From Brachyspira sp. SAP_772 (GTDB lineage: Bacteria; Spirochaetota; Brachyspiria; Brachyspirales; Brachyspiraceae): a DNA stretch of 64,000 nucleotides. The notes under the pieces are model-generated. The model saw only the letters and a list, made by a program, of their open reading frames with translations. It was not told the DNA's origin and did no database searches. Location of the stretch: positions 826,044-890,043 of the forward strand of contig NZ_VYIX01000001.1 in NCBI RefSeq assembly GCF_009755885.1. Direction: 5' to 3'. How positions within the stretch are numbered: position 1 is the stretch's first letter; every line of letters begins with the position of its first letter. The position numbers and the translations under genes are program-made. Of this stretch, positions 5,324-28,700 are shown piece after piece.

Positions 5324-6610
5324 TTATATAACCGTACCACTCTTAACAATAGTGTTTTTCGGAATAATTACTATACCATCTCTAATACAGTAAAACTCAC
5401 TGTCTTGATGCTGAATTTTCTTTTTATTTGTAATGATAACATCGTTTCCTATTCTAACATTCTTATCTATGATAACATTTTTGAGTGTACATTTTTTACC
5501 TATACCAACCTTAGGCAAATGCTTAACATTTAATCTCTCAATATCCTCACTAGTTTCATAGAAGTCACTACCCATCATAATAACCTTTTCTAAAGTAGAA
5601 CCGCTTTGAATTACAGAACGAAGACCTATTACTGACTCTTTGATAGTAGCATTTTCTATTCTGCATCCATCAGCAATTATACTAGAAGTAATAGTAGCCT
5701 TTTCAACTTTTGAAGGAGACAAGTAACGGACATGTGTATATATAGGAGCATCTTCATCATAAAAATCGAAAGGAGGATTTTTGCTTCCAAAAGATATATT
5801 AGCATCAAAATAAGCTTTAATAGTACCTACATCCTCCCAATAACCTTGGAAAGCATAGCTGAATACTTTATATTTTTTAATAGCTTCAGGAATAATATCT
5901 TTACCAAAGTCTATCATTGTAACATCACTAAGAAGTTCTTTTAACACATTTCTTCTAAATGCGTATATACCCATAGAAGCCAAATATTCTTTTTTAGGAT
6001 CTTCTATTTCAAACATCTTTTTTTGCTCTTCACTCAATTTTAAAGAATCTAAAACATCATCTTCTTTAGGTTTTTCTTGGAAATTAGTAATCTGTCCTCT
6101 TTTATTAACAAGCATTACACCAAAACCTTTAGCATCTTCACGCACTACAGGAACAGTTCCAACAACTATGTCAGCACCAGTTTCAAGCATATGTCTTACC
6201 ATAACATTATAATCCATACGATAAACCTGATCTCCAGAAAGTATTAGAACATTATTAACATAATCATTGTCGAAGTGAGCAAGATTCTTTCTTACAGCAT
6301 CGGCAGTACCTTGATACCAATCTATATTAGTATCAGTTTGCTCTGCTGCCAATATACTAACATGACCGCCAGAGAAGTTGTCGAATCTATAAGCATTGTA
6401 AATGTGATTATTTAGAGAAGCACTATTGAATTGAGTAATAACATATATATTTCTAAGTCCGCTATTGATACAGTTAGAAACAGGTATGTCAATCATTCTG
6501 TAATGACCGCCCAATGATACTGCAGGTTTAGAACGATCTTTAACAAGAGGATAGAGCCTTGTACCTCTACCTCCTCCTAAAATTAAAGCTACTGTATTAT
6601 ATGACCTCAT
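5324..6610 (-). CDS. glgC: Glucose-1-phosphate adenylyltransferase
   Basis: Makes ADP-glucose from glucose-1-phosphate and ATP, the first committed step of glycogen synthesis. The start at 6610 gives 428 residues, close to the family's usual 400-430. It has a GGAG site at 6621-6624 and begins MRSYNTVALILGGGRGTRLYPL, the expected nucleotide-binding loop. The in-frame ATG at 6682 lies inside the promoter and adds an unlikely hydrophobic leader. Further marks are KPAVSLGG, WYQGTADAVR and a C-terminal left-handed beta-helix with hexapeptide-like repeats. It stands alone, with its own promoter and terminator; no other glg gene is in the window. Confidence 0.95.
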   Translation of the reverse strand: MRSYNTVALILGGGRGTRLYPLVKDRSKPAVSLGGHYRMIDIPVSNCINSGLRNIYVITQFNSASLNNHIYNAYRFDNFSGGHVSILAAEQTDTNIDWYQGTADAVRKNLAHFDNDYVNNVLILSGDQVYRMDYNVMVRHMLETGADIVVGTVPVVREDAKGFGVMLVNKRGQITNFQEKPKEDDVLDSLKLSEEQKKMFEIEDPKKEYLASMGIYAFRRNVLKELLSDVTMIDFGKDIIPEAIKKYKVFSYAFQGYWEDVGTIKAYFDANISFGSKNPPFDFYDEDAPIYTHVRYLSPSKVEKATITSSIIADGCRIENATIKESVIGLRSVIQSGSTLEKVIMMGSDFYETSEDIERLNVKHLPKVGIGKKCTLKNVIIDKNVRIGNDVIITNKKKIQHQDSEFYCIRDGIVIIPKNTIVKSGTVI

Positions 6611-12701: not shown

Positions 12702-13510
12702 TTAAAGAGATAAACAAAATAATAAAAACCTTAAACAACATACCAGAACCATTCTCTGTAGACGGCATAATAAAAACCTTTGAAAAAAGCTCTAAAAAAA
12801 TAATAAAAAACTTTGCATTATATTTTTATAAAGATAATAATTCAAATCTATGGTATTCGACTTCAAAAAATATAATAAAAGAAAATAATAATAAATATAA
12901 ATTACAAGCAAGAAATTATGAGTTTGGATATTTAATAATTGAAAGCAGCATTGAAAAAGAATATTTAGAAATACTAATAAATCATTTATCTATTATTCTT
13001 TACAGTGAAAAACTATCATTTTTGGCAAATAGAGATAAACTTACTAATTTATACAACAGAGGCTATTTATTAAAATATTTAGAAAACAAAAAAGATGAAA
13101 TATATTCTGTAATAATAATAGATTTAGATAAGTTTAAGCATTATAATGATAGTTATGGTCATAATGTAGGAGACCATGTATTAAAAATAGCTTCAAAGGT
13201 AATGAGAGAAACACTAAAACAAATAAAATACAATTCACTTCTTGCAAGATATGGTGGAGAAGAGTTTATTATAGTTATTGATACAAAGACTAAAAAAGAG
13301 CTTTTTAATATAATGGAAATAATAAGAAAGAAAATATACGAAACAGATTTTTCAACTGATGAATATTCTCTAAAAGCAACTGCTTCTTTTGGCGGAGCAA
13401 TTAAAACAGATGATAATACAATTAATAGTTTAATAGAAAAAGCAGACAAAGCATTATATGAAGCAAAAGAAACGGGAAGAAACAAAAGCATCATAGATAA
13501 TCATAATTAA
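12698..13510 (+). CDS. GGDEF-domain diguanylate cyclase
   Basis: A 270-residue protein. The N-terminal 110 residues are a small alpha/beta, GAF-like sensory region with no membrane segment. The GGDEF domain follows, with DKLTNLYNRGYL, DLDKFKHYNDSYGHNVGD and the active-site signature ARYGGEEF near residue 185. The signature is intact, so it should make cyclic di-GMP from two GTP. I see no clear RxxD inhibitory site. It is coupled to the TPR gene by a 4-base overlap, and its 3' end overlaps the convergent GT11 gene by 20 bases. Confidence 0.9.
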   Translation: MIKEINKIIKTLNNIPEPFSVDGIIKTFEKSSKKIIKNFALYFYKDNNSNLWYSTSKNIIKENNNKYKLQARNYEFGYLIIESSIEKEYLEILINHLSIILYSEKLSFLANRDKLTNLYNRGYLLKYLENKKDEIYSVIIIDLDKFKHYNDSYGHNVGDHVLKIASKVMRETLKQIKYNSLLARYGGEEFIIVIDTKTKKELFNIMEIIRKKIYETDFSTDEYSLKATASFGGAIKTDDNTINSLIEKADKALYEAKETGRNKSIIDNHN

Positions 13511-14483
13511 ATTTACAAGCTCTAATAACAATTTTATTTTCGTTATTATTAAAACGAGTAGCTAAATCTCCAAAACCACCTAAAGAAATTATATAATGTT
13601 TTGCCTTTGACATTAAATAAATATCCATATAAGGTTGGTTTTTTGAACTACTAATTTTATAAGATATACTATTATCTAATTTTTTTATTATATTTTTATT
13701 AACCCAATCTATATTATCAGAAAAAAAGAAGAAAGTAGGATTTTTCAATTCACTCAATAATTTATTTATAGATTCTATAAAATAATTAGCATATTTTTCA
13801 TAGCTACTATTAAATACTTTTTTAAAACATGACATAACATAGCTATCTCCAAGTCTAATATGTACAGCTACCGATTCTTTATCTTTCAATTCATTATATA
13901 ATACTAAATTATCTCCTTGCAAAGTATTATAATGGTATTTATCTAAATCTATATTTTTAGTTATATCACTAACATTAATATCTAAAATTCTAGGATATGA
14001 ATATAAAAATAAATTTTTATTATTTTGTAAAAAACTATTAATATCATATCCAAAATATGATTTACTTATAACAGGAAAACACGCCTTATAAAAAAATATA
14101 TCATCATAAGCAGCAATTTTAAAATCTATATCAGGACATAGTTTAAGTAATTCAAAAGGTCTTTCATCTTTACCATCAACATCTTTATGTTTATAATCAA
14201 ACCAAGTTATATCGTATTTTACAGTAAAATTATAATGTTTTTTTATAGATTCACCAAGTACATATTTCCAAAATTGATCAGATAATCCTCCTTGACATTC
14301 TATAATAACTGTACCTGAATCAGTATTATTATTCTTTTTATTGAGTTCTTGAGATATATATTCAATTTTATATAATGAATTTACAATATCGTATAATATA
14401 TTTCTTAAATTATCTCTATGTTTTTTTATAGGTATAATGCGAACTATTCTATTTATAAGATGTTCATAATTATTGTATAGCAT
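13491..14483 (-). CDS. GT11-like glycosyltransferase (alpha-1,2-fucosyltransferase family)
   Basis: A 330-residue protein with the GT11 hallmarks: an N-terminal VIIECQGGLSDQFWKY segment (GGLGNQ-type donor loop, here GGLSDQ), AVHIRLGDSY near residue 207 (HxRRGD-type motif) and FFFSDNIDWVNKNI near the C-terminal third. Members add fucose or similar sugars to surface glycans. The real donor and acceptor here are unknown. It is a lone gene without other glycan genes next to it and overlaps the diguanylate cyclase 3' end by 20 bases, so transcription of the two could interfere. Confidence 0.82.
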   Translation of the reverse strand: MLYNNYEHLINRIVRIIPIKKHRDNLRNILYDIVNSLYKIEYISQELNKKNNNTDSGTVIIECQGGLSDQFWKYVLGESIKKHYNFTVKYDITWFDYKHKDVDGKDERPFELLKLCPDIDFKIAAYDDIFFYKACFPVISKSYFGYDINSFLQNNKNLFLYSYPRILDINVSDITKNIDLDKYHYNTLQGDNLVLYNELKDKESVAVHIRLGDSYVMSCFKKVFNSSYEKYANYFIESINKLLSELKNPTFFFFSDNIDWVNKNIIKKLDNSISYKISSSKNQPYMDIYLMSKAKHYIISLGGFGDLATRFNNNENKIVIRACKFNYDYL

Positions 14484-14850: not shown

Positions 14851-15558
14851 TTATACCTCATGTTTCTTATGGAATATTTTTTTTACATATGGAATAAATT
14901 CAAATTTTTTATCAATCATTTTCCCTATAGAAGAAATAACCTTTCCCATTGTAAAAGCTGAAAGTACAGTGCCTATTCCAAGGCCTTTTATATGACCTAA
15001 AAATACAAATGTAACTACTATTGTTGTTAAAAGACAAGTTACATCAAATATTATTTTTACTTTTGCATAAGATGCTTTTATTATATTAGACAATTCTCTC
15101 GGAAATAAATCTGTAGGTATTATAGGAAGTCCGCATCTATTTGATAATGCTATTCCAAATGCCAATATAAAATAACTTATTATAAAATATATTATTCTGC
15201 TTGTCATTGTTAATGGAAGATGATTTATCCAAGCAGCATGTATGTCCACAAATTTACCAAAACAAAACCCTACAACAAAACTAAATAAATATTCTCCAAC
15301 AAACTTTTTTCTTAATATCATAAGCACTAATATGAGTAAAGTTTGAAAGATATAAGTAAAAGTTCCAAGAGATATATTATTAATAACTTCAGAAAAAGCA
15401 TAAGGCACGCTTGATATAGCGGATATGCCAGAGCCAGAATAAAGCATTAACACAACACTAAAACTATTTATAATGACAACTAAAATTAATGCTAATTCAC
15501 CGCTTATTATAAAATGTTTATTTTTACTATCTAATGAATGGTCATCTTCTGATATCAT
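14851..15558 (-). CDS. YczE/YitT-type integral membrane protein (DUF6198-like)
   Basis: A 235-residue protein with about five to six membrane helices. It has the pattern of YczE/YyaS/YitT proteins: an N-terminal helix, a glycine/serine-rich GSGISAISSVPYAFS turn, and the segment ALSNRCGLPIIPTDLFPRELS, similar to the conserved 'G.G..P.D' turn. The function of these proteins is not established; some are linked to secretion or small-molecule export. It is divergent from the sugar/polyol operon with a 408-base gap. An AAGGA site precedes the ATG. Confidence 0.7.
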   Translation of the reverse strand: MISEDDHSLDSKNKHFIISGELALILVVIINSFSVVLMLYSGSGISAISSVPYAFSEVINNISLGTFTYIFQTLLILVLMILRKKFVGEYLFSFVVGFCFGKFVDIHAAWINHLPLTMTSRIIYFIISYFILAFGIALSNRCGLPIIPTDLFPRELSNIIKASYAKVKIIFDVTCLLTTIVVTFVFLGHIKGLGIGTVLSAFTMGKVISSIGKMIDKKFEFIPYVKKIFHKKHEV

Positions 15559-15840
15559 AATATTTATCCTTATATAGTATGTATACTCATCAATTTTAAT
15601 TCATATATTATATAACTAATTATATATTAATCAAGGAATTTCTCATAAGTTATGTTTTTGTAAGTGTTCTTTATAATTTTATTTTTAAATTTTAACTTTT
15701 ATTATATAGATTATTGTAAAAAATATTTACAAAATAACTTACTATATATAGAAATATTTATAATACAACATTTGAAATTTATGATAATAACAATAAAAAC
15801 ATTGATAAAAAGATAAATTATAAAAATTTCAGGAAAAAAG

Positions 15841-15882
15841 TTTAAAAAACATATTTTTATTTTTAAAAAACAGATTTTTATT
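15841..15882 (+). repeat. Two tandem 21-bp direct repeats, probable operator
   Basis: Copies at 15841-15861 and 15862-15882 match at 20 of 21 positions (one T to G change at the 12th base). Each is TTTAAAAAACA, one variable base, then ATTTTTATT. The 21-bp period equals two helical turns, and the second copy ends on the first base of the -35 box. This fits a binding site for the DeoR-family regulator encoded at 22415-23167. Confidence 0.7.
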
Positions 15883-15910
15883 TGATTTTAAAGAAAAAAT
15901 GTACTAAAAT
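15882..15910 (+). promoter_or_regulatory. Promoter of the sugar/polyol operon
   Basis: TTGATT (15882-15887), 17-bp spacer, TAAAAT (15905-15910). Start of transcription is expected near 15917, about 50 nt before the ATG at 15967. Confidence 0.6.
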
Positions 15911-15966
15911 AAAAATATACAAAAATTAGTTTTCTATTTTATTTATTTTATGGAGGAGAACATATT

Positions 15967-17043
15967 ATGAAAGCTTTAGCTAGATTTGGTAAAGAATTTG
16001 GCGGATACAGGATGATTGATGTACCTGTGCCAGAAGTAGGTCCTGAGGACATACTATTAGAAATAAAAGCTGCTGCTATATGTGGGGCTGATATGAAACA
16101 TTTTCGCGTTGAAAATGGTTCTGATGAGTTTAACTCTATAAGAGGGCATGAATTTGCGGGTGAAATAGTAAAAGTTGGAAGTAATGTTAAAGATTGGAAA
16201 GTTGGTCAGAGGGTAGTTTCTGATAATAGCGGACATGTATGCGGAGTATGTCCTGCTTGTGAACAAGGTGATTTTTTATGCTGTGAACAAAAAGTTAATT
16301 TAGGACTTGATAATAACAGATGGGGAGGTGGTTTTACTAAATACTGTATAGTTCCCGGAGAGATTTTAAGAATTCATAAACATGCTATATGGGAAATACC
16401 TGAAAATGTAAAATATGAAGAAGCTGCTGTATTAGACCCTATATGTAATTCTTATAAAGCAATAGCTCAGCAATCTCATTTCTTACCCGGACAAGATATA
16501 GTTGTTTTCGGTACTGGTCCTTTAGGATTATTTGCGGTACAAATAGCTAGAATAATGGGAGCTGTTAATATTGTTATGGTTGGATTAGAAGAAGATACTA
16601 AAGTAAGATTTGGTGTGGCACAAGAATTAGGAGCTACACATGTAGTAAATGCTTCAAAAGAAGATGTAGTAAAACGCTGTCAAGAGATTTGCGGAAAAGA
16701 TAATTTAGGATTAGTAGTTGAATGTTCTGGAGCAAATATAGCATTAAAACAATCTATTGAAATGTTAAGACCTAATGGTGAAGTTGTAAGAGTTGGTATG
16801 GGATTTAAACCAATAGAATTCTCTATTAACGATATAACCTCTTGGAACAAAAGTATAATAGGACACATGGCATATGATTCTACATCATGGAGAAATGCTA
16901 TACGCCTATTAGCATCTGGAGCTATAAAAGTTCAGCCAATGATAACTCATAGAATAGGTCTTTCTGAATGGGAAAAAGGTTTTGAAGCTATGGCAAACAA
17001 AGAAGCAATAAAAGTTATTATTCATTATGATTTTGAAGAATAA
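15967..17043 (+). CDS. Zinc-dependent medium-chain dehydrogenase (threonine/polyol dehydrogenase-like)
   Basis: A 358-residue MDR enzyme that should oxidise a secondary alcohol with NAD(P). The catalytic-zinc site is AAICGADMKHF plus GHE. The structural-zinc loop has four cysteines (CGVCPACEQGDFLC, near residues 97-110). The nucleotide fold carries VFGTGPLGLFAVQ. The third ligand region reads AAVLDPICNS with Asp-Pro instead of Glu-Pro, as in threonine dehydrogenase-like members. It is the first gene of a six-gene operon with a strong ribosome site and a promoter with tandem operator-like repeats. The substrate is unknown; a polyol or sugar acid is most likely from context. Confidence 0.88.
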   Translation: MKALARFGKEFGGYRMIDVPVPEVGPEDILLEIKAAAICGADMKHFRVENGSDEFNSIRGHEFAGEIVKVGSNVKDWKVGQRVVSDNSGHVCGVCPACEQGDFLCCEQKVNLGLDNNRWGGGFTKYCIVPGEILRIHKHAIWEIPENVKYEEAAVLDPICNSYKAIAQQSHFLPGQDIVVFGTGPLGLFAVQIARIMGAVNIVMVGLEEDTKVRFGVAQELGATHVVNASKEDVVKRCQEICGKDNLGLVVECSGANIALKQSIEMLRPNGEVVRVGMGFKPIEFSINDITSWNKSIIGHMAYDSTSWRNAIRLLASGAIKVQPMITHRIGLSEWEKGFEAMANKEAIKVIIHYDFEE

Positions 17044-17075
17044 TATAGTTTTTAAATAATATAGGGGGTATTATA

Positions 17076-18455
17076 ATGAGTAATACAAATATTGTAAATT
17101 GCGGTCCTAGATTAGATAGACTACCAAATAATAAATGGCATTATCAAATATTTGCAATGATAGCATTTGGGTTATTAGTATGTTGGAGTAATGCTATAGG
17201 CGGATTAGTATTAGCACAGTTAGCAGAAATAGGTTGGACAAATAATGATATAAGTGCAATATTTTCATCATTAACAACAGCGGGTATGTTTTTAGGTGCT
17301 TTATTAGGAGGTATCATTGGAGATAAAATAGGACGTAAAAAAAGCATATTATTATTTGAACTAATACATATAGTATCTATGTTATTAGGTGCTTGTTCTC
17401 CAAATATGACTTATTTAATAATTTTTAGATTTATAATGGGTTTTGGTTTGGGAGCATTGCTTACAACTATGTTTGCTGGATTTACAGAGTATATGCCGGG
17501 AAGAAATAGAGGTATGTGGTCAAGCAGAGTTTCATTTATTGGAAATTGGTCTTATCCTGTATGTTCTACAATTGCTGTGTTCATATCTCCAATTTTTACA
17601 GCTAATATGAATTGGAGAATACAATTTGTAATACCTTCTGTATTATCGTTAATAGCAACATTAATAATTTGGAAAAAATTTCCTGAATCTCCTCGATGGC
17701 TTGAATCAAAAGGTTTTTATGATGAAGCAGAAAAAATAATGTCTAATATAGAAACACAAGTAGAACAAAATATAGGAAAAAAATTAGAACCCGTAGCAAC
17801 AAATTCATCAGAACAAACACAAAAAACAATAAGCATCTCTTTTGCACAATTATTTAAAGGTGCTTTATTAAAAAGAGTAATACTTGGTTCTTTTGTATTA
17901 ATTGCCATGAATGTAGTACAATATACTTTAATAAATTGGCTTCCAACAATATTTTTAGCACAAGGAATAAATTTAAAAGATTCTATATTATTAAATACAA
18001 TGAGCATGTTTGGAGCACCATTTGGTATATTTATAGCTATGCTTATTATAGATAAAATACCGCGTAAAGTGATGGGACCTGCCTTACTTATTGTAATAGC
18101 AATACTTGGTTATATATATTCAATGCAAACAAACATGACTTATATAACAATAATAGGTTTCTTTTTAATAACATTTGTATATATGTATGTATGTTACGCT
18201 TCTGCTGTATATGTACCTGAGATATGGCCTACAGAGGCAAAACTTAGAGGTTCAGGAATATCAAATGCTGTTGGACGTATAAGCGGAATTATAGCTCCAT
18301 ATGCTGTGGCAAGCCTTTTAGATACAAAAGGTCCTATGGGAGTATTTATATTATTAGGTGTTGTATCTATTATAGTTGCTATCGCTATCATTACAATCGG
18401 TATAGAAACCAGAGGTGCTTCTATCGAAGAGATTGGTAATGTTTCTAAAAAATAA
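17076..18455 (+). CDS. MFS transporter (sugar/metabolite:H+ symporter type)
   Basis: A 459-residue major facilitator with twelve predicted helices. It has GDKIGRKKS after helix 2 (the MFS loop 2-3 signature), PESPRWLESKG after helix 6, typical of sugar and aromatic-acid porters, and the central loop at about residues 205-255. It is preceded by a strong AGGGGG site 32 bases after the first dehydrogenase. It is most likely the uptake system for the compound broken down by the surrounding enzymes. Confidence 0.87.
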   Translation: MSNTNIVNCGPRLDRLPNNKWHYQIFAMIAFGLLVCWSNAIGGLVLAQLAEIGWTNNDISAIFSSLTTAGMFLGALLGGIIGDKIGRKKSILLFELIHIVSMLLGACSPNMTYLIIFRFIMGFGLGALLTTMFAGFTEYMPGRNRGMWSSRVSFIGNWSYPVCSTIAVFISPIFTANMNWRIQFVIPSVLSLIATLIIWKKFPESPRWLESKGFYDEAEKIMSNIETQVEQNIGKKLEPVATNSSEQTQKTISISFAQLFKGALLKRVILGSFVLIAMNVVQYTLINWLPTIFLAQGINLKDSILLNTMSMFGAPFGIFIAMLIIDKIPRKVMGPALLIVIAILGYIYSMQTNMTYITIIGFFLITFVYMYVCYASAVYVPEIWPTEAKLRGSGISNAVGRISGIIAPYAVASLLDTKGPMGVFILLGVVSIIVAIAIITIGIETRGASIEEIGNVSKK

Positions 18456-18479
18456 AATCATAATAAAAAGAGGTTTTAT

Positions 18480-19517
18480 ATGAAAAACACAAAAGCTATT
18501 TTAAAAGTTCCAGGAACTATGGAAATTAGAGATGCTGAATATCCTACTCCTAAAGATGATGAAGTGTTAATAAAAGTAGAATATGTTGGCATATGCGGTT
18601 CTGATATACATGGATTTGAATCAGGTCCTTTTATACCGCCTAAAGATCCAAATCAAGAGATAGGTTTAGGGCATGAATGTGCTGGTACAGTTGTAGAGGT
18701 TGGTCCAAAAGTAAAAAATTTCAAAAAAGGCGATAGAGTATGTATTGAACCCGGAGTTCCTTGCGGAAAATGCAGATTTTGTTTAGAAGGAAAATATAAT
18801 ATTTGTCCAAATGTAGACTTTATGGCAACACAGCCTAATTACAGAGGGGCATTAACTAATTATCTATGTCACCCTGAAAGTTTTGTATATCATTTGCCTG
18901 ATAACATGTCTATAATGGAAGGAGCCTTAGTTGAACCTGCTTCTGTAGGTATACATGCTGCTATGACTGCAAACGTTAAACCCGGTCATAAAGTTGCAAT
19001 ATTGGGTGCTGGTTGTATAGGGCTTATGACATTACAAGGCTGTAAAATAATGGGCTGCAATGATATTATCGTTGTAGATGTTATAGACAAACGTCTTGAT
19101 ATGGCTAAAAAATTAGGTGCTTCACAAACAATCAATGGAAAAGGTGACACTGTTTCAAAAATAAAAGAAATATTTGGAGAGCTTGGTGCTGATGTTGTGT
19201 TTGAAACAGCAGGCTCCCCTATTACGGCAAAACAGACTCAAGATATAGTAATGAGAGGCGGAAAGATAATGATAGTTGGAACTATTCCGGGAGAGACACC
19301 TATCAATTTCTTAAAAATAAATCGTGAGGTAACTATACAAACTGTATTTCGTTATGCAAACAGATATCCTGTAACTATTTCTGCTATTTCGAGCGGAAGA
19401 TTTGATGTAACTTCTATGGTAACACATCAATTTGAGTATAAAGATGTTCAAAAAGCATTTGAAGATTCTGTAAATTGTAAAAACGAAATAATAAAAAGTG
19501 TAATAAAAATAGATTAA
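18480..19517 (+). CDS. Zinc-dependent polyol (sorbitol/xylitol-type) dehydrogenase
   Basis: A 345-residue MDR enzyme close to sorbitol and xylitol dehydrogenases. It has catalytic-zinc motifs VGICGSDIHGFE, GLGHE and GALVEPASVG (Glu ligand present), a structural-zinc loop CGKCRFCLEGKYNIC, the Rossmann motif ILGAGCIGLMTLQG and the C-terminal FRYANRYPVTISAISSGR segment common in polyol dehydrogenases. It should oxidise a polyol to a ketose with NAD. It is clearly different from the first dehydrogenase of the operon, so the route may use two oxidations or an oxidation plus a reverse reduction. An AGAGG site precedes the ATG. Confidence 0.9.
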   Translation: MKNTKAILKVPGTMEIRDAEYPTPKDDEVLIKVEYVGICGSDIHGFESGPFIPPKDPNQEIGLGHECAGTVVEVGPKVKNFKKGDRVCIEPGVPCGKCRFCLEGKYNICPNVDFMATQPNYRGALTNYLCHPESFVYHLPDNMSIMEGALVEPASVGIHAAMTANVKPGHKVAILGAGCIGLMTLQGCKIMGCNDIIVVDVIDKRLDMAKKLGASQTINGKGDTVSKIKEIFGELGADVVFETAGSPITAKQTQDIVMRGGKIMIVGTIPGETPINFLKINREVTIQTVFRYANRYPVTISAISSGRFDVTSMVTHQFEYKDVQKAFEDSVNCKNEIIKSVIKID

Positions 19518-19541
19518 TAAAATTTTGAGGAGAATGTATTT

Positions 19542-20378
19542 ATGTTGGGTAATATAAAATATTGGGAAGAAAAAGCACAAAAAGGACATTATGCAATACC
19601 GCATTTTAATGTGTGGAATGCAGAAATGTTGATGGGGGTAATTGATGCTGCTGAAGAGTTAAAGGCACCAATTATAATATCATTTGGTACAGGATTTGTT
19701 GGAAATACTTCTTTTGAAGATTTTTCTAAAATGATGGTTTCTATGGCTGAAAAAGCTTCTATACCTGTAATAACACATTGGGACCATGGACGCAGTATGG
19801 AAATAGTAAAGAATGCTTATGATCATGGTATGAACTCATTAATGAGAGATGCTTCTGCATTTGAGTTTGAAGAAAATATACGTTTAACTAAAGAAGTTGT
19901 AGATTATTTTCATCCATTAGGAATACCTGTAGAAGCAGAACTTGGACATGTTGGAAATGAAACTATATATGAAGAAGCATTGGCTGCTTATAAATATACT
20001 GACCCTAATCAAGCTGCTGAATTTGTAGAGAGAACTCAGTGTGATTCTCTAGCTGTTGCTATAGGAAATCAGCATGGTGTATATACATCTGAACCACAAA
20101 TCAATTTTGATGTATTAGAAAAAGTTAGTAAAGTTGTATCTGTACCTTTAGTATTACATGGTGCTTCTGGTATAGGTGATGAGGATATTAAGAAGGCTAT
20201 TTCTTTAGGTATATCAAAAATTAATATACATACTGAATTATGTCAAGCAGCTATGGATGCTATAGTAAAAAATCAAGATAAAAGCTTTTTAGAATTAGAA
20301 AGAGCTGTAAGACAGGCAGTTAAAGAAAGAGCTATGGAAAAAATTATATTATTTGGAACAAATAAAAAGGCGGTTTGA
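19542..20378 (+). CDS. Class II ketose-(bis)phosphate aldolase
   Basis: A 278-residue zinc aldolase of the fructose/tagatose-bisphosphate family. Visible motifs are THWDHGRSME (catalytic Asp and zinc His), AELGHVGN (Glu), LVLHGASGIGDEDI (zinc His and phosphate loop) and INIHTEL. It cleaves a ketose phosphate to dihydroxyacetone phosphate and an aldehyde. The N-terminal FNVWNAE has Trp where many members have Asn, and HWDHG replaces the usual HLDHG, so substrate preference may differ. A GAGGAG site precedes the ATG. The stop overlaps the kinase start. Confidence 0.9.
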   Translation: MLGNIKYWEEKAQKGHYAIPHFNVWNAEMLMGVIDAAEELKAPIIISFGTGFVGNTSFEDFSKMMVSMAEKASIPVITHWDHGRSMEIVKNAYDHGMNSLMRDASAFEFEENIRLTKEVVDYFHPLGIPVEAELGHVGNETIYEEALAAYKYTDPNQAAEFVERTQCDSLAVAIGNQHGVYTSEPQINFDVLEKVSKVVSVPLVLHGASGIGDEDIKKAISLGISKINIHTELCQAAMDAIVKNQDKSFLELERAVRQAVKERAMEKIILFGTNKKAV

Positions 20379-21337
20379 TTTTGGATAAGAAATTAGATGT
20401 TATTTGTCTTGGAGCGGCTATTGTAGATATAATTCTTCAGCCAGTTTCAAGAAATATATTTGATATAGAATCATATCCAATAGAAAAAATAAAAATGACT
20501 ATTGGAGGAGATGCTTTAAATGAGGCTACCATTATCAGCAGGCTTGGATATAAAACAGGAGTAATAAGCTGTATAGGTATGGATGCTGCTGGAAACTTTA
20601 TTCTTGAATCTTGTAAAAATGATAATATTGATGTTGAAGGAATAAAAATAGTAAAAGAGATAGATACTTCTATTAATATAGGCTTGGTTACTGATAATGG
20701 AGAGAGAACTTTTGTTACTAATAGAAATGGAAGTTTATGGAAAACTAATATAGAACATATCAATTTTGATAAAATGAAACAGGCAAAAATTCTCTCATTA
20801 GCAAGCATCTTCAATAATCCATTATTAAATGGTAAAGCATTAGTTAATATATTTAAAATAGCCAAAGAAAATAATATGACTATTTGTGCGGATATGATTA
20901 AACCTAGGTTGGGTGAAACTTTGAATGATATAAAAGAATCTTTGCAGTTTATTGATTATTTTTTTCCTAATTATGAAGAAGCTAAACTATTAACTGGAAA
21001 AACAAAATATGATGAAATAGCTGATGTATTATTAAAATGCGGTGTAAAAAATGTAATAATCAAAACTGGAAAAGAAGGTTGTTTTATAAAGAACAATGAA
21101 AAAACTATTGTAATACCTGCTGTTAAAGGAATAAAAGCAATAGATACTACAGGGGCTGGAGATAATTTTGTTTCTGGATTTATCTCTGCTATTTTGAAAG
21201 GTAAAAATTTAGAAGAATGCGGTATTTATGCTAATGCTACAGCGGCAATATCTGTGCAGTATGTAGGTGCTACAACAGGTGTGCATAGTATTGAACAAGT
21301 AACAGAAATATTAAAAGAATATGAGGTGAATAAATAA
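20375..21337 (+). CDS. PfkB-family carbohydrate kinase
   Basis: A 320-residue ribokinase-fold enzyme. The substrate-binding segment is MTIGGDALNEATIISRLG, and the ATP/anion-hole signature DTTGAGDNFVSGF carries the catalytic Asp. No ATG fits. The start is a TTG at 20375 overlapping the aldolase stop (TTGA); a second TTG at 20381 is possible. With no second kinase in the operon, it most likely phosphorylates the ketose that the aldolase then splits. The AKR gene starts on its last base. Confidence 0.88.
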   Translation: MILDKKLDVICLGAAIVDIILQPVSRNIFDIESYPIEKIKMTIGGDALNEATIISRLGYKTGVISCIGMDAAGNFILESCKNDNIDVEGIKIVKEIDTSINIGLVTDNGERTFVTNRNGSLWKTNIEHINFDKMKQAKILSLASIFNNPLLNGKALVNIFKIAKENNMTICADMIKPRLGETLNDIKESLQFIDYFFPNYEEAKLLTGKTKYDEIADVLLKCGVKNVIIKTGKEGCFIKNNEKTIVIPAVKGIKAIDTTGAGDNFVSGFISAILKGKNLEECGIYANATAAISVQYVGATTGVHSIEQVTEILKEYEVNK

Positions 21338-22317
21338 TGGAAAAAATGAAACTTGGAAATACAAATATTGAAATATCAAGAATAGGCTTAGGTACTTGGG
21401 CTATAGGAGGAGGTCCTGCTTGGGGGGGCGATAAAGATGAGGAGGTATGTATTAATACAATTAGAAAATGCCCTGAGCTAGGTATAAATTTAATAGATAC
21501 TGCTCCCGGTTATAATTTTGGTAACAGTGAAAGAATATTAGGAAAAGCATTAGAAAAAATGAATCGTAAAGATATTATCATTATCACTAAATGCGGTATT
21601 GTATGGGAAAGAAAAGGAAGTCTTTTTAACAAAGTTGGAGATATTCAGCTTTATAAAAACTTGTCAAGAGAATCTATACTTGAAGAGATAGAAAATAGTC
21701 TTAAACGTATGCAAACAGATTACATAGATATTTATATGACTCACTGGCAAGCTGTAGAGCCTTATTTTACCCCTATTTCTGACACCATGAAAGTATTAAA
21801 TGAATTAAAAGCAAGCGGTAAAATAAGAGCTATAGGTGCTGCCAATGTTACTGTGGAACATATTGAAGAATATTTAAAATATGGAAGTTTAGATATAGTT
21901 CAAGCAAAATATAGTATATTAGACCGTGCTATAGAAAAAGATTTGATTCCTATATGTAAAGAAAATAATATTACTATTCAAGCATATTCTCCGTTAGAAC
22001 AAGGATTATTAACAGGAACATTACCTAGAGATTATACTCCAGTTGGTGCTCAATGCAATAAAAAATGGTTCCAAAAAGAAAATATGCAAAAAGCTATGGA
22101 TATGATGGATAAATGGCAGGAACTTTGCAAGAAATATAATTGTTCTATTGCTAACTTAGCTATATCTTGGATATTATCTCAAGGTAAATTTATTAATCTA
22201 TTAAGCGGGGCAAATACTGTTGCTGAAATAGAACAAAATGTTAAATCTGTACAAATAAAATTGTCTGATGAGGATATAAAATATATGCGTGAATTAGCTG
22301 AAAGTATTGATAAATAA
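21337..22317 (+). CDS. Aldo-keto reductase
   Basis: A 326-residue (beta/alpha)8 oxidoreductase. The catalytic tetrad is visible: Asp and Tyr in DTAPGYNFGNSE, Lys in IITKCG and His in YMTHWQ. The cofactor end has LSGANTVAEIEQN, which places NADPH. It overlaps the kinase stop by one base (TAATG), with GAGGTGA as ribosome site. In this operon it could reduce the aldehyde released by the aldolase or act on the starting sugar. It is the last gene of the six-gene unit. Confidence 0.9.
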   Translation: MEKMKLGNTNIEISRIGLGTWAIGGGPAWGGDKDEEVCINTIRKCPELGINLIDTAPGYNFGNSERILGKALEKMNRKDIIIITKCGIVWERKGSLFNKVGDIQLYKNLSRESILEEIENSLKRMQTDYIDIYMTHWQAVEPYFTPISDTMKVLNELKASGKIRAIGAANVTVEHIEEYLKYGSLDIVQAKYSILDRAIEKDLIPICKENNITIQAYSPLEQGLLTGTLPRDYTPVGAQCNKKWFQKENMQKAMDMMDKWQELCKKYNCSIANLAISWILSQGKFINLLSGANTVAEIEQNVKSVQIKLSDEDIKYMRELAESIDK

Positions 22318-22348
22318 ATCTCAATTCAACAATTTATTTTGCTATTTA

Positions 22349-22377
22349 TTAATAAAAAGCTTTGATATAAATATAAT
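22349..22377 (+). promoter_or_regulatory. Candidate promoter of the DeoR regulator gene
   Basis: TATAAT at 22372-22377 with a weak TTAATA 17 bp upstream (22349-22354). The ATG follows at 22415. The 21-bp operator-like repeat of the main operon does not recur here. Confidence 0.35.
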
Positions 22378-22414
22378 AAATGGTAAAATAAAGAAAAAAT
22401 TGAGGTTTTTAATA

Positions 22415-23167
22415 ATGAAAAACAGATTAGATAAAATTAAAAGTAAAATAGAAATTGATAAAAAAGTTACTGTTTCTGAATTGAGCAAAACTTTTAATGT
22501 TACAGAAGAAACAATTAGAAGGGACTTAGAAAAGTTAGAACTAGAAGGTTTTGTAACTCGTACTTTTGGAGGAGCGATATTTAATAATCAATCTCAAAAG
22601 GAGAATATGAGTTTTTATACTAGAGCTTCTATTAACATAGAAGAAAAAAGAAAAATAGCTAGTTTATTTTATAACATGATTGGAAATAAAAAAACTATAG
22701 CTGCTGATTCTAGTACTACTGTTATGGAAGCTATAAAAGCTATAAAAAACATAAATGGTTTAACTATTCTAAGTTCTTCTACTGAAATTTTTAGAGAATT
22801 ATTAGGCTCTAAAATAAATATTATTTCAATAGGAGGGACATTTAACGAAAAAACTCTTTCATTACAGGGGAATTTAGCAAAAGAAAATATAAAAAGATAT
22901 TATATGGATATTGCATTAATAAGCTGTAAAGGATTGGATATCAATAAAGGTGTTATGGATTCTAATGAAGGAGATGCTGAAATAAAAATGGAAATGATCA
23001 AACAGGCATCAGAAGTAATACTTCTCGCTGATAACACTAAATTTAATAAAAAAGCACTGGTACAGTTTTTAGATTTAAATAAGGTTGATTATATAATAAC
23101 AGATAAAAAACCTGATGATGAATGGATACACTTTTCTAGAGAGGCAAATATAAATTTGATTTATTGA
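22415..23167 (+). CDS. DeoR/GlpR-family transcriptional regulator
   Basis: From the ATG at 22415 (GAGG at 22402-22405) the protein is 250 residues, the usual DeoR length; an ATG at 22307 adds an implausible leader that overlaps the AKR gene. The N-terminal winged helix is VTVSELSKTFNVTEETIRRDLEKL, followed by GFVTRTFGGA. The C-terminal sugar-phosphate-sensing domain has AADSSTTVMEA, SIGGTFN and ADNTKFNKKA. Such regulators bind direct repeats and respond to a phosphorylated sugar intermediate. It probably controls the 15967 promoter through the tandem 21-bp repeats (inference). Confidence 0.92.
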   Translation: MKNRLDKIKSKIEIDKKVTVSELSKTFNVTEETIRRDLEKLELEGFVTRTFGGAIFNNQSQKENMSFYTRASINIEEKRKIASLFYNMIGNKKTIAADSSTTVMEAIKAIKNINGLTILSSSTEIFRELLGSKINIISIGGTFNEKTLSLQGNLAKENIKRYYMDIALISCKGLDINKGVMDSNEGDAEIKMEMIKQASEVILLADNTKFNKKALVQFLDLNKVDYIITDKKPDDEWIHFSREANINLIY

Positions 23168-23189
23168 TGTAGCAAAAATATTCCTGTTT

Positions 23190-23205
23190 GATTATCCGTA
23201 TAATC
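23190..23205. promoter_or_regulatory. Inverted repeat before the SDF symporter gene
   Basis: GATTAT, 4-nt CCGT, ATAATC: a perfect 6-bp dyad in the 58-base gap between deoR and the symporter gene, 20 bases before the ATG. It could be an operator or a weak hairpin. Confidence 0.35.
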
Positions 23206-23225
23206 GTATATAAGCGAGGGATAAA

Positions 23226-24572
23226 ATGAAAACAAAAAAACATCAAATCTCTATTGTAAAAAAAATGTTAATAGCTGTAGTACTAGGAATAATATGCGGT
23301 ATATTGTTTCTATACTTACGAGAATATTTATTATCAGTAAATAAAGAAAAAATTTGGATAATTATAAGCAGAATATTTTTTAATGATATTTCTGAAGAGA
23401 AAGGATTTTATTCCATAGGCCTCTTTTATATTATTGGTCAATTATTCATGAGATCAATACAGTTAATGATTGTTCCATTAGTTTTATCGTCTTTAGCCAT
23501 TGCATTATGCAGTATGACAGATACAAATAGGTTTGGTAAAATAGTAGGAAAAACAATTATAATATTCATCATTTTTTATATTATTGGAGCTTTATTGGCT
23601 AGTTGTTTTGCATATTTCCTTAAAAATTTAGGTGTTTTTTCAGTACAATTGCCTGAAATATATGAAAAGTCTATAGTAACAATGGAGGCATATAATCCGC
23701 TTGTAACAATTATAAATATAATACCGTATAATATAGTAGATTCTATATCTTCAAACAATAGTATACTTTCTGTTGTATTAATTGCTATAATAATCGGAAT
23801 TTGTCTTAATAAAATTGGAAAAGAATCTAACTATATTAAAGAATTATTGACTGCCATAAGTAATATAGTAAACTTATATATGAATTTTATTATTAATAAA
23901 ATAAGCCCTATAGCGATTTTCTGCATGATTACAAGAAGTTTTGCTATATACGGCATAGAATATTTAACTCCTACAATTGCTTGGATGATATCAACTATAA
24001 TTATTAGTATAGTATTGGTATTCACAATTTACCCTATTGGTATTTTTATATCTACAGGTTTAAATCCATTTATTTTTATTAAAAAGATTACAAAAGTAGG
24101 ATTATTTGCAGCAGCAACGAATTCATCAGCTGCCACACTTCCATTAAACACAAAGACATGCATAGAAGAATTAGGATGTAGTGAGGAAATTAGCAGTTTT
24201 ATTTTGCCAACTGGTATGACTATAAATATGAACGGTACTACAGTAATGCATATGATGTCAATAACTTTTATTGCTACAGCAGCTGGAATTAATTTAAGAC
24301 CTGAACATCTTGTTATAGCTGCTTTTCTATCAATATGTACAGCTATGGGAACACCTGCTATACCTGTAGCAGGAACAACTATGATATTTGTAATATTATC
24401 TGGACTTGGATTTACTTCTGATTTTTGTATGATTGGATATGCATTAGTGCTTGCAATGAATTATCCGCCAGGTATGGCAGCAATTACTTTAAATGTTGTT
24501 GGAGATGCAGCAACAAATGTAATTATAAATGAAAAAGAAAATAAATTAGATAAAGAAAAATACTATAGTTAA
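23226..24572 (+). CDS. SDF-family cation symporter (dicarboxylate/amino acid)
   Basis: A 448-residue sodium/proton:dicarboxylate or amino-acid symporter (GltP/DctA/SstT superfamily). Features are about eight helices, the serine-rich hairpin AATNSSAATLPLN and the substrate/ion segment PTGMTINMNGTTVMHM with a NMNGT core. It may import C4-dicarboxylates, glutamate/aspartate or Ser/Thr. The residues visible do not settle which. A loop between helices 3 and 4 (about residues 135-175) is unusually long. It follows deoR by 58 bases and ends in a stable hairpin. Confidence 0.87.
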   Translation: MKTKKHQISIVKKMLIAVVLGIICGILFLYLREYLLSVNKEKIWIIISRIFFNDISEEKGFYSIGLFYIIGQLFMRSIQLMIVPLVLSSLAIALCSMTDTNRFGKIVGKTIIIFIIFYIIGALLASCFAYFLKNLGVFSVQLPEIYEKSIVTMEAYNPLVTIINIIPYNIVDSISSNNSILSVVLIAIIIGICLNKIGKESNYIKELLTAISNIVNLYMNFIINKISPIAIFCMITRSFAIYGIEYLTPTIAWMISTIIISIVLVFTIYPIGIFISTGLNPFIFIKKITKVGLFAAATNSSAATLPLNTKTCIEELGCSEEISSFILPTGMTINMNGTTVMHMMSITFIATAAGINLRPEHLVIAAFLSICTAMGTPAIPVAGTTMIFVILSGLGFTSDFCMIGYALVLAMNYPPGMAAITLNVVGDAATNVIINEKENKLDKEKYYS

Positions 24573-24588
24573 TTATATTAATTTATTT

Positions 24589-24625
24589 ACAGTATGAATT
24601 AGTGTAAAATATTAATTCATACTGT
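24589..24625 (+). terminator. Terminator-like hairpin after the SDF symporter gene
   Basis: Perfect 13-bp inverted repeat ACAGTATGAATTA (24589-24601)/TAATTCATACTGT (24613-24625) with an 11-nt loop, 17 bases past the stop codon. The downstream tract is AT-rich but lacks a clean T-run. Confidence 0.6.
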
Positions 24626-24677
24626 ATAATTATTAATTCTAAAAATTATATTATCATACTAATCATTTTTAAGATTT

Positions 24678-24890
24678 ACACTACGCACGGCAAGCAAAAT
24701 TTTATATATAATAAAAAATTAAAATTAATAATTAGCATATATTTATAATTTCACTCTGCGTGCGGTAAAGGGATTTTAAATCTAAATAAAATTTGGGTGG
24801 GCTTTAGAATTGAAGAGAGTATTTTAAAGAAAAATGAAATAAAAAACAGATAGAAATTCTCAATATAGAGGGTGGGTAAGTGTAAATAGA
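24678..24890. repeat. Relatively GC-rich patch, candidate dispersed repeat
   Basis: Contains CTACGCACGGC, then CTCTGCGTGCGGTAAAGGG about 70 bases on (core CGCACG/CGTGCG in inverted orientation), then TTGGGTGGGCTTTAGAATTG and, about 75 bases later, AGGGTGGGTAAGTG. The recurring GGGTGGG cores and palindromic ends stand out sharply in this AT-rich DNA. No coding frame is intact. Confidence 0.4.
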
Positions 24891-25446
24891 TTAATAAATT
24901 AATTACAACATATACTATATATTTTATTATTTTAATTAAAAAATTATAGTTTAATTATATTAATATATACCCAATGAAATTATTCTTTAAATTTATCATT
25001 ATTTTAATTCTTATAATATACTTTATTTATAAAAAAAGTTTGTTATAAGAATGTTGCTATTGTACTAATTTATTAGGCAAGAATTAAACTAGTAAAAAGA
25101 ATATTGATAATTTAGTGAATAAAACATTAATAATATATTTATTAAACATTGAACTTTTAACATAAAAATACATATTTTAATATATAATTATTTATAAAAA
25201 ATTTAGAAAGTGGTATTTTATGTTTTTACTTATTCTTATAGCTAAAGTTTTAAAATTAGAAAATTATTATATAAATAATATGATATTATTAAATTTATTG
25301 GCATTCTATTGAATTTATATATATTATAATATGATGTATTTATAAAATGATAATAAAATATTAAGTAACACTATAAGAAAATCAAAAATTTAGAGTAGAA
25401 ATTATTATTTTATGCTTTAAATTTATTTAAAATAAAGGAGTTAAAA

Positions 25447-25629
25447 ATGAAAGAAGAAGAACCAAACCAAGAAAATGAACAAAAATGCTCTAATTCTACA
25501 TCTGATAATATAAATATTTTAAAAGCAGCTGCAGGAGGAGCATTATTTTGTAGCGGTATCGCATTATTATGGAACAGTAATATTATTAAAATATTAGTTA
25601 ATAGTATTAAAAGCTTGAATAATAACTAA
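25447..25629 (+). CDS. Small single-TM protein of unknown function (60 aa)
   Basis: A 60-codon gene with a strong AAAGGAG site 6 bases before the ATG and a strong terminator 20 bases after the stop, so it looks like a real mono-cistronic gene. The N-terminal 24 residues are acidic and polar (MKEEEPNQENEQK). Residues about 27-45 form one hydrophobic helix with a small-residue face (AAAGGALFCSGIALLW), and the tail is short and basic. No family is recognised. It could be a membrane-protein partner, a holin- or toxin-like peptide, or a Brachyspira-specific protein. Confidence 0.65.
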   Translation: MKEEEPNQENEQKCSNSTSDNINILKAAAGGALFCSGIALLWNSNIIKILVNSIKSLNNN

Positions 25630-25648
25630 TATCAAGTAGATTTCACAT

Positions 25649-25680
25649 AATGACTAATTATTATAATTAGTCATTTTTTA
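25649..25680 (+). terminator. Strong terminator of the 60-residue protein gene
   Basis: Perfect 12-bp stem AATGACTAATTA/TAATTAGTCATT (25649-25660/25664-25675) with a 3-nt loop; the T-run reaches 25679. Confidence 0.9.
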
Positions 25681-25712
25681 TTTATTAAATACTTATTAAA
25701 AAAATAAATGAA

Positions 25713-25760
25713 GAAAAAATATAATTAAGGGCGATATCTTATAAAAGATACCCCCTTAAT
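25713..25760 (-). terminator. Terminator of the alpha-2-macroglobulin gene
   Basis: Long imperfect hairpin 25724-25740/25745-25760 (ATTAAGGG...TATCTT/AAGATA...CCCTTAAT) just past the stop at 25787. On the minus strand a T-run (25718-25713) follows. A T-run on the plus side (25762-25767) makes it potentially bidirectional. Confidence 0.8.
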
Positions 25761-25786
25761 ATTTTTTAATATACTGAAACTATTTA

Positions 25787-28700
25787 TTATTTAGCTTCAA
25801 TTATAACTTTATGCTGTCCGTCATAACCAAACACCTCAGGATTATACATCTCTTCAGCCTTAGTAGCAGGAAGTAAATATTCACCAGGTGTAACAGCACG
25901 AACTACATATTTGTATATATGCTCACCCTTATCAAGAACATCAGCAAATAATAATATCTTGTCATTATAGTTTTCAGTATGATTAAATCCGCCCCACCAC
26001 CAAGTATTATTATAATTACCTGTGATATTTTTAATTTCGCTGCTTTCTGTAGCAAATGAAGAGTTTAATATTCTCATACCAGAAGCAATAGGAGTGTCAA
26101 CTACAACAAAATGTCTTTCATAAGGAACTGTAACTTTTACAACAACAACATACTCTTCGCCTTGTTTAAATTTCTCTTTAGTGAGGTCTAATACTCTGCC
26201 GTCTTTAGTTTGATACTCTCTTACAACATTTATTCCCATGTCTCTATTAACAGCCAAAGCACGAGGTGCATAAGTAAGTCTTACACCATAATAAAGTCTT
26301 CCCTCTCCAATTCTTTTAATATTTGCTATAGAAGCTCTTGTATTTAAATTGCTTAATCTCTCATTCATGAACTCACTTAAAGCATAATTTTGTGTTAAGC
26401 TAGGCTGAGTTCTTGAATTAAAGTTTTCAGCAAGTAAAGTTTTACCTTGATATATAAACTCTGCTTTGAAATTAGGTTTAACATTCTCGTATTTTTTGTA
26501 ATACATATTCATAGCAGCAAATACTGATACATTATCTTGAGTATTTAAATATCTTCCGTTTTTTCTTGATTGAACAAGCCAGCGAACCACTTTTTCATTG
26601 ATAGCATTGTCATAGCCTGTTTCAATTAAAGCATATAAAGCAACTGAAGTATCTCTTACAGATGAAGAATGTATCCAATAAAGATTTTTATATCTCTCTT
26701 CTAGTTCATAATGAGCAGTATTAGGGTCTTCTTTAATGGTGTTAAGTATATATTGTCTAACATCAGTAAATGCTTTGTTATCATATTTGTTATAATACAT
26801 AGCTCTCATTAATTGAACTTGTCCATAGAAAGGTATATTATTAACTTGAGGGTATATTCTGTCTATTATAACTTTTACATCATTAGCATTATATTCGCCC
26901 TCTGCAAGAACTGCCGCAATATAAGCTATAGATGAAAGATTAATATACTCATCAAACCAGAAGCTAGGTTTTTCAGCTTCCCCACTCTTAGCATAATTGT
27001 TAATATATTCTAATGCTAATTTTAGAGAGTTTTCATCAATAGCGTAGCCCTCTTTTTTAGCTTTAATCATAGTCTCAGCAGCATAAGCAGTAAGCCAAGG
27101 AGATATCCAAGTTTTGCTAGGATAATAAGAAAATCCTCCATTAGGGCTTTGATAAGTAGGCATAGCTTTTAAGAAACTTTTTACAGTGTTGTCTAATTCT
27201 TCTTCAGATATATCTGTAAGATTCATGTCTACTAACAATCTCTTACTTGTTATTATAGGGTACACTCTTGATAACTGCTGCTCCAAACAAAGATAAGGAT
27301 AATTTATAAGATAATTTATTCCTCCTGTAAGTTCACTGAATGCACTAGGAGACATATAAACTTCTAAACTTCCAGCACCTTTATAAGCCTCTGTAGTATT
27401 TGGCACTCTAATCATTAAATCAGTATTGTTATTTGTAGTGCTTGAAAATAAAGCAACAGATTCTGTAGTCATAGGAATATTAACTTTAAATGTTTTCTCT
27501 ACAGCATCAGTATAATCTCCGCCTTTAGCAAGTATTGTAACTTTAGCTTCTCCGCTATTTGTAGCTATAATATCAAATCTTACATCAGCATTGCCGCCTT
27601 TAGGCACAGTTATTTTTTGACTAGCATTTTGTATTAAAGCATTAGAAGCAACTGCCTGAACCTCTATTTCTAAATCTTTATCAGAATAATTATAAACTAT
27701 GCTTCCTGCTTTGAACTTATCTTCAACATAAGCAAACTCTGGCAAAGTAGGCATAAGCATAATATTTTTCTTAACCACCACAACATCATCAGAAGCACCG
27801 AAATAACCGTCTTTATTTATAGCAGAAGCCATTATTCTAAATGATGTAATATTGTCAGGCAAATTAAATGTAACAGTAGCCTTACCATTAGCATCAGTTT
27901 TTACTCTTCCTTGATAGAAAGCAGTTGTCAAGAAGTTTTTTCTTATACTGAATACGTCCATACCCATAGCCTCAGCTTTAGCCATAAGCATATTGTCTGC
28001 TCTCATACCATCTCCGCCCGGTGTGTCCCCTTTCTCACCATAGTTACGCTGACCTATTAAGTGTATTCTTGTATCGGCACTTGCCACACTCAAAGGTCTC
28101 TGTCCGTAGAAAGTATTAAACCAGTTAGGAGTTTTATAGCCTATTAAATTTAACACTCCAACATCAACAACACTTAACATAACTTCTGTTTCCATAGGCT
28201 CACTTTCTTTAGTTTCAACATATAAGTCTACTGTCATCTCATCACGAGGCTCTAAACTATCAGCAGATTTTGTTATTGTTACATTAAGCTCTTTTTCACG
28301 AGGAGATACTGAAAGCCCAGCATAACCAATCTTAAATGATGGCTTTCCTTCGTCAGTAGCATAATTAGTATAAGCTTCATTTTCAACCCTACCCTTAACA
28401 AGCGAAACACCTACATATATGTTAGGTAAATATTCAGGTTTTATAGGCACTTCTATTAAAGCAGTAGAGCCTTCAATATTTGTAACAAAAGAATCTATTA
28501 CATATTCTCTCTCAACTGTTACCAAAGCAGTAGCAGATTCATAAGGAGATTTAACCATTATTCTTGCTGTTTCATAAGGTTTATACTCTTCTTTTTCTGT
28601 GATAAGCTCAAGCAAATCATCATCAAACATAGCCCAAGGAGCATAATCTTTACCTATAACATACATATATTCATCAGCAGCAACTTCTCTATTTTTAGAG

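Follow-up and report, generated by a model that had tools for sequence, protein, structure and literature searches.

A probable horizontally acquired ydj operon in Brachyspira sp. SAP_772, with a proposed mechanism for long-chain acidic sugar catabolism

The closest described system is the ydjLKJIHG-ydjF(-ydjE) cluster of Escherichia coli K-12 (b1776-b1769). Two of its products carry substrate-specific names in RefSeq, YdjH being listed as L-glycero-L-galacto-octuluronate kinase and YdjI as L-glycero-L-galacto-octuluronate-1-phosphate aldolase, and both proteins have solved structures. According to the excerpted text of PMC11194214, E. coli YdjI makes or cleaves octuluronate-1-phosphate, with dihydroxyacetone phosphate (DHAP) and L-arabinuronate on the other side of the reaction. 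Excerpts of PMC9602453 report that the E. coli ydj enzymes show a preference for long-chain monosaccharides ending in a carboxylate, and say that their best in vitro substrate has no natural abundance; therefore, the true substrate may fall outside the set that was tested. Kinase and aldolase activity on carboxylate-ended C7-C9 ketoses, by way of the 1-phosphate, is published for E. coli according to these two papers. For the E. coli enzymology, both texts, as excerpted, cite Huddleston et al. 2019 and Huddleston and Raushel 2019.

We analyzed a 64,000-nucleotide stretch of the genome of Brachyspira sp. SAP_772 (the window). Six tightly packed open reading frames (ORFs), all on the + strand and free of internal stops, occupy positions 15967-22317, with spacings of 32, 24, 24, -4 and -1 nt, and in this respect the first-pass annotation was accurate. 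As judged from sequence, the locus is a collinear ortholog of E. coli K-12 ydjLKJIHG followed by ydjF, i.e., a complete ydj operon. In pairwise comparisons, the first ORF (15967..17043, +) codes for a zinc medium-chain dehydrogenase with 82% identity to E. coli YdjL over 358 aa. It is followed by an MFS transporter (17076..18455, +; Pfam MFS_1/Sugar_tr) that is 70% identical to YdjK and 46% to YdjE, and by a second zinc medium-chain dehydrogenase (18480..19517, +) with 76% identity to YdjJ over 345 aa. The next three ORFs code for a class II aldolase (19542..20378, +; 81% to YdjI), which by orthology would be a higher ketulosonate-1-phosphate aldolase, a PfkB-family sugar kinase with a TTG start (20375..21337, +; 67% to YdjH) and an aldo-keto reductase (21337..22317, +; 63% to YdjG). 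The six genes had been taken as the whole unit. The unit is, however, eight genes long, since a DeoR-family regulator orthologous to YdjF (22415..23167, +; 55% over 249 aa, Pfam HTH_DeoR and DeoRC) and an SDF-family (sodium:dicarboxylate symporter) transporter (23226..24572, +; Pfam SDF, 269 bits) belong to it.

The seven ydj families have the same order and orientation as in E. coli K-12, and the spacing is similarly tight, although the intergenic gaps and overlaps differ slightly. The main difference lies after ydjF, where E. coli carries a second MFS transporter gene, ydjE; this gene is absent at the window locus, and the SDF-family carrier stands in its place. Because the slot after ydjF varies among relatives, ydjE is not treated as defining for a ydj operon. 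A search of gene neighbourhoods, which had been proposed as a check, found the same order in E. coli K-12 and in dozens of other genomes, and a recurrence of this kind is far beyond chance. A near-DNA search for the operon among E. coli genomes gave no match, as expected from a protein identity of 63-82%. The gene set is thus already known, and the locus is a further ydj operon with one swapped transporter. As to whether the set has also been assigned to a substrate, a possibility raised in the first-pass annotation, the RefSeq octuluronate names speak for such an assignment, and the natural abundance that the best in vitro substrate is said to lack (PMC9602453, as excerpted) speaks against it. 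In our view, this is likely a ydj operon gained by horizontal transfer, made up of ydjLKJIHG-ydjF and the SDF-family transporter gene, with a probable mechanism for the catabolism of long-chain acidic sugars.

The family assignments made from the ORF translations (two zinc dehydrogenases, an MFS importer, a class II aldolase, a PfkB kinase and an aldo-keto reductase) proved right when checked against Pfam, NCBIfam and PDB matches and motifs. The best PDB match of the aldolase is E. coli YdjI (6OFU) with 503 bits, the next best scoring 181, and that of the kinase is E. coli YdjH (3H49/3IN1) with 463 bits, followed by a match of 109. The kinase carries the motif DTTGAGD at residue 257. With the YdjG equivalog model NF049922, the aldo-keto reductase scores 623 bits, above the cut-off of 550, and both dehydrogenases have the GHE and the four-cysteine CxxCxxCx7C zinc motif.

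With the fructose- and tagatose-bisphosphate class II aldolases (FBA, GatY/KbaY), the window aldolase has in common the fold family, HxDH and the zinc-histidine motifs. It differs from them in reading FNVWNAE, HWDHGR, MRDAS and LGHVGNE where those enzymes have FNxxN, HLDHG or HLDHH, MIDxS and LGxxGG. The Trp of FNVWNAE and the HWDHG motif had been noted as a possible local peculiarity. In an alignment of 49 YdjI orthologs, in which 147 of the 278 positions are invariant, FNVWNAE, HWDHGR and MRDAS are unchanged in all 49, and the Trp and HWDHG are also present in the solved E. coli structure 6OFU. On this alignment, these residues are a mark of the whole YdjI family rather than of the window locus. 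Of the aldolase models compared, only the broad subfamily TIGR00167 is passed; GatY (251 bits, cut-off 383), KbaY (191 bits, cut-off 542) and FBA (TIGR01859; 250 bits, cut-off 343) were rejected. The same applies to the second dehydrogenase as a galactitol-1-P dehydrogenase (166 bits, cut-off 550) or an L-idonate dehydrogenase (169 bits, cut-off 469), and to the kinase as a tagatose kinase (90 bits, cut-off 420).

Based on these data, we propose the following mechanism. The YdjK MFS transporter, the SDF-type carrier or both would bring in a long-chain sugar or sugar alcohol that is hydroxylated and probably acidic, and its hydroxyls would be oxidized by YdjL and YdjJ, as NAD(P)-dependent zinc dehydrogenases, to give a 2-ketose of the ketulosonate type. 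The YdjH kinase would phosphorylate the 2-ketose to the 1-phosphate, which the YdjI zinc aldolase would then cleave to DHAP, for entry into glycolysis, and a shorter aldehyde (a sugar-acid semialdehyde, e.g., L-arabinuronate). This aldehyde, or a related one, may be reduced by YdjG, and the DeoR-type regulator YdjF may respond to a phosphorylated intermediate in controlling the operon. The kinase and aldolase steps are transferred from the published E. coli enzymology at 67-81% identity, whereas import, oxidation, the aldo-keto reductase step, regulation by YdjF and the natural substrate are what we infer. The sequence of import, oxidation, phosphorylation, cleavage and aldehyde reduction read from the ORFs alone is supported by orthology. 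The preference for a ketose-1-phosphate over a bisphosphate route likewise appears sound, given that E. coli YdjI acts on octuluronate-1-phosphate (PMC11194214, as excerpted). A bisphosphate route with a second kinase was rejected: the genome has eight PfkB-family matches, and only the YdjH ortholog lies inside the operon.

The polyol or rare-sugar substrate first suggested fares less well, and by analogy with the E. coli enzymes the substrate likely belongs to the higher sugar acids and not to the simple polyols. An operon for a simple polyol, pentose or hexose (of the sorbitol, galactitol, tagatose or L-sorbose type) would convert polyol to ketose, ketose phosphate, and finally DHAP plus an aldehyde, and both medium-chain dehydrogenases do resemble sorbitol, threonine and iditol dehydrogenases, while the aldolase shares a broad superfamily with GatY/KbaY. 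Such an operon nevertheless seems quite unlikely here: the curated polyol equivalog models (galactitol-1-P dehydrogenase, GatY, KbaY, tagatose kinase) all stay far below their cut-offs, the FBA and tagatose-bisphosphate aldolase residues are replaced by YdjI-specific ones, and the E. coli orthologs prefer carboxylate-ended long sugars in the excerpted account (PMC9602453).

The swapped transporter was compared with characterized members of its family. In an alignment, TM8 of the carrier reads GMAAITLNVVGD where GltTk has DMGRTMVNVTGD, with a D to G and an R to A replacement; we take these positions to be the equivalents of GltPh D394 and R397. The general TM8 motif is common to the 39 carrier homologs aligned, and the DctA and GltP equivalog cut-offs are not reached. 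Because the TM8 Asp and Arg are replaced by Gly and Ala, the carrier is unlikely to be a standard transporter of aspartate, glutamate or succinate. Within the genus, only genome G015 has it (96% identity); the other Brachyspira genomes carry distant paralogs, at most about 30% identical, or 37% over a fragment.

Outside the genus, the ydj cluster is patchy and was found in Lachnospiraceae and in Enterobacterales/Pasteurellaceae. A close YdjI is present in 9 of 397 Lachnospiraceae genomes in a broad sample, and in 3 of 395 genomes sampled from the order of Necropsobacter. The ydj-like clusters of Lachnospiraceae and Oscillospiraceae (L010-L063) and that of Necropsobacter rosorum (L038) have the core, the DeoR gene and, as here, the same SDF-type carrier downstream, mostly at 55-65% identity; carrier homologs in this range follow the DeoR gene in most Lachnospiraceae ydj-like loci. 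Most of the L010-L063 clusters differ from the window operon in two ways: YdjL and the MFS gene are separated by a gene for an AlsE-like 3-epimerase, and the MFS itself is less closely related (about 52-56%), whereas the window operon has no epimerase gene and an E. coli-type MFS. The N. rosorum cluster also has no epimerase gene. The window and G015 proteins form a pair in the aldolase tree, outside a well-supported Firmicutes clade of 32 rows, among remaining rows that include E. coli YdjI and some Lachnospiraceae. Since the forks near this pair are poorly resolved, the donor cannot be named. The locus indicates that a well-studied, substrate-orphan E. coli operon is transferred whole among Firmicutes, Enterobacteria and a spirochaete.

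The genes that accompany the core in other lineages offer leads on the substrate. Of 54 related loci, 37 have the additional gene that separates YdjL from the MFS gene (e.g., L062 6761-7456); the product of this gene is a member of Ribul_P_3_epim that is nearest to D-allulose-6-phosphate 3-epimerase (243 bits, cut-off 271). The gene is absent from both the window operon and the E. coli K-12 cluster; therefore, the pathways may differ between clades. We rejected the idea that the missing epimerase is encoded elsewhere: the single Ribul_P_3_epim gene of the genome lies far from the operon and is presumably a housekeeping enzyme. The third transporter slot holds an MFS, an SDF or a LivKHMGF-type ABC system, depending on the lineage. 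Two Anaerostipes genomes (L039/L041) have an RraA-like gene and an aminotransferase gene within the operon itself; next to the core, L025/L028/L036 and L117 carry aminotransferase, RraA, pxpB, pxpC and pxpA genes, and pxp genes are also found in L013/L014. The pxp and aminotransferase names, which we assigned by reading the sequences, are presumptive; Pfam support comes from one check of the pxpA family (PF03746) and from RraA-like matches. Given that pxpA occurs 39 times per 200 Lachnospiraceae genomes, the ~0.98 Mb of loci examined should contain about 0.06 copies; 6 were seen, a post hoc count that comes from about two lineages. In five loci (L060 9675-11633, L049, L051, L026 and L063), a class III fructose-1,6-bisphosphatase (FBPase_2) gene adjoins the cluster.

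The AlsE-like epimerase, the three alternative transporter types and the amino-acid-catabolism neighbours narrow the natural compounds worth testing for the ydj pathway. On the boldest reading, which we hold to be unlikely, the ydj family as a whole would be a pathway that moves among gut bacteria and acts on an unrecognised higher sugar of natural origin, acidic and possibly nitrogen-linked, and the substrate could be deduced from its lineage-specific accessories, namely the epimerase, the non-canonical SDF and LivKHMGF carriers and the aminotransferase/RraA/pxpABC neighbours. A related alternative is that the ydj core breaks down the sugar moiety of an acidic compound that contains nitrogen (a sugar-amino-acid conjugate or similar), and that the aminotransferase, RraA-type and 5-oxoprolinase neighbours handle the amino-acid part in some lineages. 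The RraA-like and aminotransferase genes in and beside the core, the excess of pxpA, and a third transporter slot filled by SDF or LivKHMGF systems, both from families whose substrates are amino or carboxylic acids, would fit it. We consider it very unlikely, however, as the lead was found post hoc among many families in loci that are not independent, the extra genes are missing from the window operon and the E. coli K-12 cluster, and the L028-type pxp genes come after a LysR gene and may form a separate operon. That the locus detoxifies aldehydes under carbonyl stress, the reductase and the aldolase removing reactive aldehydes by condensation with DHAP, is hardly credible: YdjG is annotated as an NADH-dependent methylglyoxal reductase, and excerpts of PMC9602453 report E. 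coli ydj genes to be over-represented in acid-resistant isolates, but the presence of two transporters and a kinase alongside two polyol-type dehydrogenases is in keeping with uptake and catabolism, and the patchy distribution is like that of a nutrient-use island.

The reading of the locus as an acquired ydj operon was compared with the corresponding site in relatives. By blastn, the window up to 15731 and from 24668 matches positions 5463 and 5487 of the G007 locus (L098), so that the flanks are ~24 bases apart in G007; hence, one segment with all eight genes (15731..24668, approximate because of the AT-rich edges) is present here and absent there. The aldolase was found in only one other of 26 genus genomes, G015, in which all eight genes are 95-99% identical to those of the window and the right-hand neighbour is the same. 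The G+C content of the six ORFs is 0.29-0.35, as compared with 0.278 for the window. Acquisition of the segment in an ancestor of the window genome and G015 is a simpler reading than loss everywhere else, although G007 may instead have lost the segment. Upstream of the operon, two 21-bp direct repeats (TTTAAAAAACAKATTTTTATT; 15841..15883, +; TRF, 21 bp x2, 95%) mark a candidate operator/promoter region and abut a promoter-like TTGATT-17-TAAAAT (site 15882-15910), a kind of site of which the scan of this AT-rich DNA found 100 with 82 expected. The second repeat and the promoter-like stretch are the same in G015, although the flanking DNA differs. An 18-pair inverted repeat lacking a good T run (24588-24626) lies directly 3′ of the SDF carrier gene, and could be the operon terminator.

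The site is variable, as its interval contains other genes in G004 and G013. It extends over 15558-25787, between a YczE-like gene and a macroglobulin gene, and holds the ydj operon here, nothing in G007, and repeat-rich (WNTSNV...) proteins with other genes in G004 and G013 (L100 4001-9450 and L101 4621-11930). Its right-hand neighbour (25787-31531, -), conserved in the relatives examined, codes for a predicted alpha-2-macroglobulin-like protein of 1914 aa with what reads as a CLEQ thioester-type motif. To the left, at 13491-14483 (-), there is a putative fucosyltransferase-like glycosyltransferase gene (GT11-style HIRLGD) that has an 89% match in G007 but none in the part of G015 that was read. 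An AT-rich intergenic element with CGCACGG/GCGTGCGG motifs (24668-24936), which lies at the insertion's right edge, has two matching places in the G004 locus and two in the G013 locus. It is possibly a small repeated element, and its 24-base core was detected, with up to 3 mismatches, in 11 of the 26 genus genomes.
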